Below are positions 6,417-46,736 of a DNA stretch of 64,000 nt, piece by piece. The translations under genes were made by a program, and so were the position numbers. This stretch comes from Collimonas humicola (GTDB lineage: Bacteria; Pseudomonadota; Gammaproteobacteria; Burkholderiales; Burkholderiaceae_D): positions 1,550,001 to 1,614,000 of the forward strand of contig NZ_JAGQEE010000001.1 of assembly GCF_018304945.1 (NCBI RefSeq), read 5' to 3'. The notes under the pieces are model-generated. The model searched no databases, had not been told where the DNA came from, and worked only from the letters and a program-made list of their open reading frames with translations. How positions within the stretch are numbered: position 1 is the first letter of the stretch; the number at the start of each line of letters is the position of its first letter.

Positions 6417-6776
6417 GGGGTATTCGAACTATGACCACCTTGAAACCCGCATGAAATAAGGAGGGCTGTATATGCATACAGCCCCCTATTCTCCTCCAGT
6501 GCAGGGAATGTGGCAGAAAAATCCCCCCAACAGTACGCGTAGCCACTGATTAGATTCTCACCACCTCCAACACCCCTCAGGTTGCCTCAACCCTTATAAA
6601 TATGCCAAATGACCTCGCTGCGACAATTTTTTCATCTGCAGCAAACTACTTGCCCCATTGACACATTTCTCAATGTCAACTATTGTTTCCGAAAAGTAAT
6701 TTATTGTATCTATTAATTCTTAGCCGTTGTTAGAAAACGATAATCGTCGCCAGCTCAAGCAGAGCCATAAAAATCA
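6417..6776. other. AT-rich non-coding segment before the Rhs genes
   Basis: No gene seen. It contains a strong hairpin, GGGCTGTAT-ATGC-ATACAGCCC (6463-6484), just inside the att site, and the putative Rhs promoter at 6658-6686. Confidence 0.6.
6658..6686 (+). promoter_or_regulatory. Putative promoter for the Rhs operon
   Basis: A consensus TTGACA (6658-6663) is followed after 17 bases by TATTGT (6681-6686), four of six matches to TATAAT. The -35 is also the left arm of a TTGACA..TGTCAA dyad (6658-6679) that could bind a regulator. No other good promoter lies before the Rhs frame. Confidence 0.45.
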
Positions 6777-43660: not shown

Positions 43661-44203
43661 TCAATCGCGTGACGGGCAGCTTTTAGCCGCCTTGTGGCGC
43701 GGAAAAGTCAGCCGCATGGCAACCCGTTGCCCCAGCCCCGCTTCAGCCTCCTGCCTGAGCGCCGCAGCCAGGAAATCCGGCGCGGCGCCCAGCGTGACAA
43801 AGCCGAACTTGCGATACAACGCCTGGCTGGGCGCGAACTCCAGGAAAGTGGTCAGGTATAAAGTCGGGATCACGCGCGCATTGCCCCAGGCGACGACCGC
43901 CGCCAGCAAGGCGCTGCCTATGCCGTGTCGGCCATAGGCCGGCAGGACGTCAAGTTCCGCCAGCACCGCCACCTGGCCATGCATGGCGACGCAGGCAAAA
44001 CCGAGCACCGTGGCAGCGCTGTCCTTTGCCACCCACAGCATGCCAGCCGCTTGCGCCGCCACCAATTTTTCAGGCGCCACCGTTTCGCCGCGCAAATGCA
44101 GCGGCAGCAAGCGTTCAGGAAACAGCGCAGCCGCGGCCTGCTCCACCGCAGCCAAAGCCGGCACGTCCTCTATCGACGCCAGTTCAATCCGGTAATCCGT
44201 CAC
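43661..44203 (-). CDS. GNAT-family N-acetyltransferase
   Basis: A 180-residue acetyltransferase. GTG 44203 (VTDYRIELASIEDVPAL) is chosen because GGAGGG lies 6 bases upstream; an ATG at 44227 is the alternative. The acetyl-CoA loop is RHGIGSALLAAVVAWG, preceded by the usual beta-strand AELDVLPAYG. The C-terminal YRKFGFVTLG is typical. Substrate unknown. It lies 68 bases downstream of the radical SAM gene, possibly co-transcribed and so also under the SOS box. Confidence 0.88.
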   Translation of the reverse strand: MTDYRIELASIEDVPALAAVEQAAAALFPERLLPLHLRGETVAPEKLVAAQAAGMLWVAKDSAATVLGFACVAMHGQVAVLAELDVLPAYGRHGIGSALLAAVVAWGNARVIPTLYLTTFLEFAPSQALYRKFGFVTLGAAPDFLAAALRQEAEAGLGQRVAMRLTFPRHKAAKSCPSRD

Positions 44204-44271
44204 GTCCGCCCTCCATTCATCGCGCATCTCATCGCTCGTTGTTCCACCCAAGCCGGCGCCAGGGATCATCG

Positions 44272-45414
44272 CTAAAACAAATCCATCTGCGGCGTCGGCT
44301 TCCGCTCCACAGGCAGCTGCGGAGGCCTGAACCGAGAGCTGTCCAGCTTGGAGAACGAACCGCGCTGGACCAGCCCGTAACGCGCCGTCGCTTTCTTGTA
44401 GCGCTGCCGCAGGAAATCGGCCCAGATGCCTTCGCCGCGCATGCGCGTAGCGAAATCCGCATTGTAGTCGGCGCCGCCGCGCATTTCCCTGATATGGTTC
44501 ATGACCCTTTTCGCGCGATCCGGAAAATGGGCGTTCAGCCAGTCCTGGAACAAGGGGTTCACTTCCCACGGCAAGCGCAGCACGATGTAATTGGCGCACA
44601 CCGCGCCGGCCTCCGCCGCTGCTTCGATAATCCGTTCCAGGTCCGGTTCGTTGATGAAGGGGATCAGCGGCGCAATGCTGACGCTGACCGGGATGCCAGC
44701 CTCGGCCAAGGTCCTGATCGTGCGCAAACGCCGCGCCGGCGCAGCGGCGCGCGGTTCCAGCGTGCGCGCAATGGCCGGATCCAGCGTGGTGATGGTGACC
44801 GCTGCCACCGCCTGGTTCTTGGCCGCCATCGCCGCCAGCAAATCGATGTCGCGCTCGATCAGCGACGACTTGGTGATCAGCGCCAGCGGATGTTCGCAAT
44901 CGTGCAACACTTGCAGGATGCGGCGCGTCAAGCCAAGCTCGCGCTCGCAGGGCTGATAGGCGTCGGTATTGACGCCGATGGCGATCGACGCCGGCACATA
45001 GGATGGCTTGGCCAGCTCGCGCAGCAACAACTGCGGCGCGTTCACTTTGGCAAAAATCCGGCTCTCGAAATCCAGCCCTGGCGAGAGGCCGAGATAGCTG
45101 TGCGTAGGCCGCGCAAAGCAATAGATGCAGCCGTGTTCGCAGCCGCGATAGGGATTCAGGGAAACGCCAAACGGCAGGTCCGGCGAGGCATTGCGGCTGA
45201 GGATGCTTTTTGCCTGTTCCTCGGTGACGATGGTGCGCACCACGGGTGGATCAAGCTGCTCATCTTCGCCGGCCCAGCCGTCGTCGAAATCTTCGCGCTG
45301 GTCGGTTTCGTAACGGCCTTGCATATTGCTGGTCGCACCCCGGCCTTTGCGCACCACGCTGGCTCCCTGGAAATGCATTACCTGGGCGGGATGTTTTTTT
45401 TGCTGATCTGACAT
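44272..45414 (-). CDS. Radical SAM protein of the PA0069 type
   Basis: A 380-residue radical SAM enzyme. The cluster cysteines are C92, C96 and C99 in GCEHGCIYCFARP. The fold continues with IGVNTDAYQPCERELGLTRR and ALITKSSLIERDIDLL, as in the spore-photoproduct-lyase-like group to which Pseudomonas PA0069 belongs. The reaction is not established. A perfect LexA-type box lies 15-30 bases before the start codon, so expression is expected to rise on DNA damage, which fits a role in nucleic acid repair or modification. The start region lacks a strong ribosome site. Confidence 0.9.
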   Translation of the reverse strand: MSDQQKKHPAQVMHFQGASVVRKGRGATSNMQGRYETDQREDFDDGWAGEDEQLDPPVVRTIVTEEQAKSILSRNASPDLPFGVSLNPYRGCEHGCIYCFARPTHSYLGLSPGLDFESRIFAKVNAPQLLLRELAKPSYVPASIAIGVNTDAYQPCERELGLTRRILQVLHDCEHPLALITKSSLIERDIDLLAAMAAKNQAVAAVTITTLDPAIARTLEPRAAAPARRLRTIRTLAEAGIPVSVSIAPLIPFINEPDLERIIEAAAEAGAVCANYIVLRLPWEVNPLFQDWLNAHFPDRAKRVMNHIREMRGGADYNADFATRMRGEGIWADFLRQRYKKATARYGLVQRGSFSKLDSSRFRPPQLPVERKPTPQMDLF

Positions 45415-45428
45415 CGAAGCACCAATTA

Positions 45429-45444
45429 CTGTATGTATATACAG
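45429..45444. promoter_or_regulatory. LexA (SOS) box
   Basis: CTGTATGTATATACAG matches the CTGT-N8-ACAG consensus exactly and is nearly palindromic throughout. It is located immediately before the radical SAM gene and 72 bases from the divergent regulator gene at 45516, so it could control both. Confidence 0.85.
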
Positions 45445-45515
45445 TATTTTAGCGTAAACCAGGCAAATGCAACAGCATCCGGGGACGTCGTGGCACGGCG
45501 GTGTATTCTATCGCC

Positions 45516-46736
45516 ATGGACTCCCTGATAGCCGCCTCCGCGCGCGCCCTCGCTGCCGGCGACGTACTCGGCGCCCTTAAGCGGGTCGCCCTGCGCGACG
45601 ACCCGCCGGCGCTAGCCTTGCGCGGCATCGCCATGGCCCAGCTGGGCGAGCACGCGCGCGCCCGCGAGCTGCTGCGGCGCGCCGCCCGCGGCTTCGGCGC
45701 CAACGAGGAGCTGGCGCGCGCACGCTGCGTGGTGGCCGAGGCCGAGGTGGCGCTGGCCGTGCGCGACCTCGGCAGCTCGCCGCGCACGCTGACGACGGCC
45801 CTGGCCACGCTTGCAGCGCACGGCGATCACGCCAACGCGCTGCAGGCGCAGCTCATCGCGGTGCGCAAACTCTTGCTGCTTGGCCGCCTGGACGAAGCCG
45901 AGGCGGCACTGGCGCCGCTTGATGCGCGCGGCCTGCCGCCGTCGCTGGCGGCAGTGGCCGAGCTGGCGGCGGCTGAGCTGGCGCTGCGCTCCTTGCGCAT
46001 CGGACCGGCACGGGCGGCGCTAGCTCGTGCGCATGAGGCGGCCGGGCGCGCAGGCGTGCCGGCGCTGCTGGCCGAGGCGGCGGAAGCGCAGGCCACGCTC
46101 GATCGTCCTGCCGCCAGGCGCCTCTGCGCCGGCGGCGAGCACATGCTGCGCCTCGACCAGGTGGCAGCGCTGCTGGCCTCCGACGCGCTGGTGGTCGACG
46201 CTTGCCGGCGCGGGCTGGGCACTGGCGCTGCGTGGCAATCGCTGGCGCGCAGGCCGGTGCTGTTCGCGCTGGCGCGCGCGCTGGCCGAGGCCTGGCCTGG
46301 CGATGCTGGGCGCGAAACCTTGATCGCCTGCGCATTCGGCACCCGCCACCCCAACGAATCGCACCGGGCGCGCCTGCGGGTCGAGATCGGCCGTCTGCGC
46401 GCACTCGTGACGGAACTGGCGCAGATCGAGGCTACCGCGCAAGGTTTTGTCCTCAAGCCGCTAGCCGAGCGCGCCGTGGCCGTGCTGGCGCCGCCCATCG
46501 ATGGCGACCAGGCGGCGCTGGCAGCGCTGCTGGCCGACGGCGCGGCCTGGTCGACCTCGGCCCTGGCGCTGGCCCTTGGGGATAGCCAGCGCACCGTGCA
46601 GCGCGCGCTGGCCGAGCTGGAGGCCGCCGGACGGGTACGTTCAATCGGGCAGACCCGGATGCGCCGCTGGCTGGCGCCGCCGCTGGCAGGATTCACGACA
46701 ATCTTGTTACTCCCCGCTACGCTGCAGATGGAATAG
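45516..46736 (+). CDS. TPR and winged-helix transcriptional regulator
   Basis: About 406 residues, very Ala/Leu/Arg-rich. The N-terminal 240 residues look like tetratricopeptide helices (ARELLRRAARGFGANEELAR, RLDEAEAALAPLDARG). A central segment (RPVLFALARALAEAWPGDAG, HRARLRVEIGRLRALV) resembles the OmpR/SARP-like winged helix. A second winged helix is at the C-terminus (WSTSALALALGDSQRTVQRA, LEAAGRVRSIGQ). Start ATG 45516 (MDSLIAAS). The downstream propeller, GST and DUF899 genes on the same strand are its likely targets. The ligand is unknown. Confidence 0.75.
   Translation: MDSLIAASARALAAGDVLGALKRVALRDDPPALALRGIAMAQLGEHARARELLRRAARGFGANEELARARCVVAEAEVALAVRDLGSSPRTLTTALATLAAHGDHANALQAQLIAVRKLLLLGRLDEAEAALAPLDARGLPPSLAAVAELAAAELALRSLRIGPARAALARAHEAAGRAGVPALLAEAAEAQATLDRPAARRLCAGGEHMLRLDQVAALLASDALVVDACRRGLGTGAAWQSLARRPVLFALARALAEAWPGDAGRETLIACAFGTRHPNESHRARLRVEIGRLRALVTELAQIEATAQGFVLKPLAERAVAVLAPPIDGDQAALAALLADGAAWSTSALALALGDSQRTVQRALAELEAAGRVRSIGQTRMRRWLAPPLAGFTTILLLPATLQME

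Follow-up and report, generated by a model that had tools for sequence, protein, structure and literature searches.

A putative LexA-controlled radical SAM gene of Collimonas humicola and its kinship with spore photoproduct lyase

The locus and its operator

The window analysed here is a stretch of 64,000 nucleotides from Collimonas humicola (contig NZ_JAGQEE010000001.1, positions 1,550,001 to 1,614,000), and its positions 44272-45414, on the minus strand, encode a radical SAM protein of 380 amino acids. A preliminary description of this DNA had called the gene PA0069-type, an assignment borne out by a score of 469.4 bits against the PA0069 family model NF033668 (cut-off 360). The Radical_SAM domain (PF04055; 57.7 bits) is the sole Pfam domain over cut-off in the window protein. 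The CxxxCxxC motif, which sequence and alignment place at residues 92-99 (CEHGCIYC; 45118-45141, minus strand), forms the predicted [4Fe-4S]/SAM site, and its residues C92, C96, C99 and Y98 are invariant in all 67 aligned members. The protein is thus a full member of the PA0069 family, from which no difference was noticed. NCBI assigns NF033668 the model type hypoth_equivalog, and to our knowledge no reaction has been established for the family. A related actinobacterial family, Rv2578c (NF038135), matches the window protein at 225.3 bits, under its own cut-off of 430. In a class sample of 274 genomes, 89 have a PA0069-family gene over cut-off, and phage records gave five partial matches. Domains of flavin photolyases do not appear in the Pfam tables for the protein and the family members.

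Ahead of the gene lies a LexA-type operator (SOS box), CTGTATGTATATACAG, at 45429-45444, to which no strand is assigned. It is a perfect 16-bp site occupying bases 15-30 before the ATG start codon (45412-45414, minus strand), exactly as had been claimed, and the longer match around it reads TACTGTATGTATATACAGTA. The bare CTGT-N8-ACAG pattern is by itself weakly above chance, since two sites were found in the 64-kb window against 0.43 expected and at least two occurred in 7 of 100 shuffles. The box stands above chance because its AT-rich form is enriched genome-wide and because the site is kept in orthologous promoters. A simple scan of 45380-45560 detected no sigma-70 promoter. A divergent gene on the plus strand (45501-46736), with a weak helix-turn-helix match (PF13730; 22.6 bits, below the cut-off of 25), begins 57 bases past the box; as the two share an intergenic region, control may reach this gene too, and its expression might also be affected.

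Downstream, at a distance of 44 bases and on the same minus strand, lies a GNAT acetyltransferase gene (43661-44227; PF00583, 50.4 bits). The suggestion that it belongs to the same unit finds no support in conservation, as none of 168 loci shows a GNAT homologue beside the gene at E 1e-6; the flanks of these loci differ in length, and some are cut by the contig edge. Cotranscription of the two genes in C. humicola is possible. At another Collimonas locus (L007), a match to an Smr gene lies 41 bases past the radical SAM stop on the opposite strand, with no GNAT gene between. No neighbour common across lineages and hinting at DNA repair was found; synteny is lineage-specific only. One such arrangement occurs in 11 of 17 alphaproteobacterial loci (L052, L058, L061, L062, L063, L074, L075, L076, L077, L079 and L086), where rnhB, encoding RNase HII, follows the gene on the same strand, the match starting 18-373 bases past the stop.

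LexA-type sites elsewhere in the genome

Within the 5.6-Mb genome, the form CTGTATN4ATACAG occurs at 5 places, against 0 for a reversed-pattern control. The form ACTGTN8ACAGT occurs at 10 places against 7 for its control, so that its enrichment is not clear. Four of these ten places adjoin recA (61 bases), a DinB-like polymerase gene (46 bases), an ImuA-like gene (44 bases) and the radical SAM gene itself (14 bases), the names RecA, DinB-like and ImuA-like being a reading of translations by eye. At the remaining six, no SOS gene was recognised from the translations of open reading frames. The lexA gene of the genome (236 bits) is preceded by two CTGT-N8-ACAG sites, CTGTACAAAAATACAG and CTGTTGATATACACAG, approximately 110-125 bases ahead of the lexA profile match. 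The box before the radical SAM gene resembles those at recA, lexA and the DinB-like and ImuA-like genes, and the operator therefore fits the genome's own SOS-gene sites.

Conservation of the operator among relatives

Conservation of the box was surveyed in 168 loci, comprising 80 named loci, the top-ranking among 593 relatives and hence weighted to near kin, and 88 further loci from the class sample of genomes. The region scanned extended up to 260 bases ahead of the conserved protein start region. The grouping of named loci followed their record titles, with the exception of L058. Two loci whose gene start lies outside the contig (L033 and L170) were left out of the counts, which changes 40/53 to 40/52 for the betaproteobacteria and 10/88 to 10/87 for the class sample; L162, L069, L085 and L057 were kept although their upstream sequence is shorter than 260 bases. 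GTTC-N7-GTTC is the usual form of the LexA motif in alphaproteobacteria.

Among the best 80 of 593 relatives, an exact CTGT-N8-ACAG precedes the gene in 40 of 52 usable betaproteobacterial loci, and a further seven carry the box with one mismatch. The background is low, with a mean of 0.18 and a maximum of 2 in shuffled sequences, and with the box in 3 of 1537 further stretches of 260 bases taken from these loci. The alphaproteobacterial loci of the same set bear GTTC-N7-GTTC at the corresponding place in 16 of 17 cases (shuffle mean 0.13, at most 1; 3 of 490 other stretches), and this form occurs elsewhere in 1 of 87 class-sample loci and in none of the 52 betaproteobacterial loci. The presence of a box under two LexA motifs suggests that the control outlived a change of LexA motif. 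Two of three unplaced Pseudomonadota among the best 80 of 593 relatives also carry CTGT-N8-ACAG.

In the survey of boxes before homologues that the preliminary description had proposed, conservation is thus strong in some lineages only. None of the seven named gammaproteobacterial loci among the best 80 of 593 relatives has the exact CTGT-N8-ACAG (one has it at one mismatch), and a Xanthomonas-type LexA pattern gave no match ahead of any of these 80 loci. In the class sample, the exact box precedes the gene in 10 of 87 usable loci (shuffle mean 0.26, at most 2), one of them (L173) from the order of the window's own organism; seven more have one-mismatch boxes, several of which look like chance. 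A motif-free search of the class-sample upstream regions returned parts of the LexA motif as its top three enriched word pairs.

A number of extra records was also inspected, for several of which the start codon is unfixed and for which counts carry no shuffle control. An Aeromonas caviae record has CTGTATATATAAACAG just ahead of the gene, and GTTC-N7-GTTC is found in five of seven further alphaproteobacterial records (L244-L250). The likeness to the Rv2578c family extends to the promoter, as two of four actinobacterial records, those of Streptomyces and Nonomuraea, have GAAC-N4-GTTC ahead of the relative. The Arthrobacter record bears GAACATACATTC, with one mismatch to this form, and that of Tsukamurella the longer-spaced TCGAACGAGATGTTCGA. 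In Gemmatirosa (L243), none of three LexA forms was found ahead of the gene, and in Legionella adelaidensis (L237) the LexA form before the gene is absent.

Where the box is missing

With the exact box in only 10 of 87 class-sample loci, universal SOS control of the PA0069 family is ruled out, and such control is restricted to certain lineages: it is frequent in the examined betaproteobacteria (mostly Burkholderiales) and alphaproteobacteria, occurs in a few further lineages of the class, and was not seen in most of the class sample. LexA was sought in 30 of the 77 class-sample genomes without an exact box, those scoring highest for the family, two of which (L108 and L113) have a one-mismatch box. 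It scored over cut-off in 23 of the 30. Eight of these 23 reach at least 226 bits, a line set after the scores were known, and in four of the eight an exact CTGT box lies ahead of lexA, with none before the radical SAM gene. In a contrast set of ten genomes with an exact box and two picked genomes with one mismatch (G015 and G128), LexA reaches at least 213 bits in 12 of 12 and an exact box lies ahead of lexA in 9 of 12. From these sequences, a different LexA motif would account for the missing boxes in part. The box is absent from most of the class sample, also in genomes with a high-scoring LexA, which implies that the role of the enzyme, whatever it is, has no need of SOS control. Read by eye, GTTC-N7-GTTC stands ahead of six weaker lexA genes (L211, L212, L213, L221, L223 and L224), three of which are second copies in their genome.

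The history of the box was followed on a protein tree of 120 redundancy-filtered rows, from which L033, L170 and L162 were left out and which was built by a fast method with local support only. The box label is clustered on this tree, with 19 changes against a mean of 38.8 for shuffled labels, and the label "none" changes at least 13 times on well supported branches, so that repeated gains or losses of the box are required.

Fold and active site

The preliminary description had related the protein to photoproduct lyases, and at the level of the fold this kinship is real. A structure model built from the 67-sequence alignment (mean pLDDT 90.7) has as its top structural matches six entries of spore photoproduct lyase, an enzyme that mends UV damage in spores, with Z 19.8-20.3, against 15.8 for lipoyl synthase, the best other fold family; Foldseek also ranked a spore photoproduct lyase entry first. 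The structural match to 4fhf covers 264 aligned residues at an rmsd of 3.2 Å and 11% identity. The window protein therefore has in common with the lyases of Bacillus and Geobacillus (4FHC-4FHG; PF20903) both the fold and the CxxxCxYC motif, but structural alignments with them show only 11-14% identity.

This proximity is what would favour an ordinary spore photoproduct lyase, repairing the spore photoproduct of dry or A-form DNA. The lyase is the nearest fold by a clear margin, the cluster motif with the tyrosine ahead of its third cysteine is common to both, and the name splB and passages of a 2012 paper (PMC3323433) read the gene in this way. By sequence, the kinship is faint. At E 1 the SPL model PF20903 gives no match to the window protein, and 32 of the 67 members match it weakly (best 1.8e-05); a search of PDB sequences with the family profile recovers no lyase at E 10. 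Lyases over the PF20903 cut-off are rare in the phylum sample of Pseudomonadota, occurring in 5 of 299 genomes, all of one genus. Profile-profile comparison of the family with true lyases aligned 107 columns with a probability of 85. As this alignment is partial, the position of the catalytic cysteine rests on a joint MAFFT sequence alignment of the 67 members with three true Pseudomonadota lyases, one of which (L175) matches 4fhc at 5e-60, and two more distant lyase-like proteins, and not on residue-level superposition.

In the lyase, the hydrogen atom is given back by a cysteine, C141 in Bacillus subtilis and C140 in Geobacillus, according to parts of PMC3742179 and PMC5368176. In the joint alignment, Geobacillus Cys140 falls on residue 148 of the window protein, a valine whose codon lies at 44971-44973 (minus strand). 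Across the 67 members this residue is Ala in 18, Thr in 16, Val in 11, Ser in 8, Ile in 6, Met in 5 and Gly in 3, and it is Cys in none; nor is it Cys in any of the 154 of 168 locus proteins in which a pattern could read the motif, a set that overlaps the 67. The second radical-transfer tyrosine (Y99 in B. subtilis, Y98 in Geobacillus) corresponds to residue 100, which is Phe in 40 of 67 members, the window protein among them, and Tyr in 27. Passages of PMC3742179 and PMC5368176 also place the donor of the Clostridium acetobutylicum lyase at a different cysteine, C74, and the donor of a lyase may accordingly sit at another site. The PA0069 family showed no further well conserved cysteine, each one outside the cluster occurring in at most 34 of the 67 members. 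An ordinary lyase is thus quite improbable as the identity of this protein.

Two further readings draw on other fold matches. Many radical SAM enzymes modify RNA, and the weaker matches include RlmN and TYW1, as might be expected of an enzyme that acts on RNA, for instance by repairing or modifying tRNA or rRNA damaged along with the DNA. However, these two reach only Z 14.2-14.4 against 20.3 for the lyase, the Pfam lists contain no RNA-binding domain, and where a similar site of this genome adjoins a recognised SOS gene, that gene serves DNA repair, so that an RNA substrate is regarded as unlikely. The peptide maturases SkfB and SuiB are also among the fold matches, and most class-sample loci have the gene without a box, in keeping with a maturase, or a radical enzyme of metabolism, that helps under stress without touching nucleic acid. 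A SPASM domain is absent from the Pfam lists, however, and LexA control under differing LexA motifs would be hard to account for; this alternative, too, is given little credence.

Published work on SOS control of related genes

SOS control of this kind of gene is already known and is not new here. The Pseudomonas aeruginosa gene PA0069 is reportedly damage-inducible, and PA3008, PA0669 and PA0670 count as SOS genes. In part of a P. aeruginosa microarray table (PMC6546240), PA0069 stands in one block with these three. Excerpts of Sanchez-Alberola et al. 2012 (PMC3323433) predict LexA control of splB in alphaproteobacteria and betaproteobacteria, note this control across two LexA motifs and report that it was not seen in gammaproteobacteria. 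Their splB is very probably of the same gene family as the window gene; it resembles spore photoproduct lyase and follows a LexA site in alphaproteobacteria and in those betaproteobacteria that have several chromosomes (Burkholderia, Ralstonia, Cupriavidus and Variovorax). PMC8565304 is counted as agreeing work on SOS control of such genes, and in later papers SplB or a radical SAM protein appears within other SOS regulons. Portions of other reports count a radical SAM protein among the core SOS genes of Gram-positive bacteria and also name one in Balneolaeota (PMC7739468), list the radical SAM protein vnz_31145, whose membership of the family is not presumed, among the LexA targets of Streptomyces venezuelae (PMC9380542), and link SplB-like proteins with SOS components (PMC3765255). 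According to PMC12924846, a Streptomyces protein of the Rv2578c family is 17.6% identical to SplB of B. subtilis, and a connection with repair is described there as speculative. Two Caulobacter papers (PMC1839093 and PMC13384398) do not name the gene under the terms sought, and the second, on the Caulobacter SOS response (2026), is without the words radical SAM, photolyase, photoproduct and splB. A section of PMC7485682 uses the PA0069 locus as an insertion site, and no mutant phenotype for the gene surfaced in a literature search short of full-text depth.

Proposed function

Control of the radical SAM gene by LexA is very probable on sequence grounds. It is well supported because the box is suitably positioned, resembles the SOS-gene sites of the genome, is conserved in betaproteobacteria and has an equivalent in alphaproteobacteria. 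LexA would bind the operator directly ahead of the gene, holding expression low. Self-cleavage of LexA upon activation of RecA by DNA damage is established, and by this route the gene would be induced together with other SOS genes.

In the radical SAM family, the cluster cleaves SAM to yield a 5'-deoxyadenosyl radical. Here, C92, C96 and C99 would hold a [4Fe-4S] cluster that does so, and the radical would then take a hydrogen atom from the substrate. The earlier proposal of a DNA or RNA damage-related radical enzyme remains plausible, and the product probably acts on damaged nucleic acid. The substrate would most likely be a damaged base or two cross-linked pyrimidines in DNA, with a reversal that needs no light, so that light-independent radical repair of some DNA lesion is the most likely function. 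The mechanism is probably not exactly that of spore photoproduct lyase, since the hydrogen-returning cysteine is absent. Taken as a whole, a LexA-controlled, SOS-induced radical enzyme acting on damaged DNA is the best explanation and is favoured by a slight balance of probability. More tentatively, the PA0069 and Rv2578c families could form a separate class of light-independent direct-reversal enzymes, acting with another hydrogen donor on some lesion of DNA that is not the spore photoproduct, and controlled in certain lineages by LexA under three LexA motifs.

Spore photoproduct lyase itself works without light. Passages of PMC3323433 term the splB enzyme a component of photoreactivation, whereas the active site of the window protein lacks the hydrogen-donor cysteine of the lyase, and neither "photoreactivation" nor "spore photoproduct lyase" is supported as a label for this gene. 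What is new here is mostly negative, namely that a family lacks the catalytic cysteine of its namesake enzyme and that the box is missing in most of the class sample. A widespread repair-like gene has been carried as a photolyase in papers on the SOS response, and in view of its active site, repair of the spore photoproduct should not be assumed for the family. If another lesion is indeed repaired without light, this would be a new direct-reversal repair activity.

Further LexA-type sites and records

Three observations lie apart from this argument. The locus L058, titled Mycobacterium sp. KBS0706, has the alphaproteobacterial box and a place among the alphaproteobacteria in the protein tree; the record is probably mislabelled. 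The other exact CTGT-N8-ACAG of the window, CTGTATATGCATACAG (6466-6481), lies in a region without a long open reading frame, approximately 300 bases ahead of a large one with YD-like repeats, and is probably a chance occurrence or a hairpin. Elsewhere in the genome, a LexA-like site, ACTGTACGTATATACAGT, at L193 (G000:C18:487697-487714), lies beside an open reading frame of 101 amino acids on one side and, on the other, two whose translations resemble a toxin-antitoxin pair of the VapBC type; SOS control of this pair is possible.
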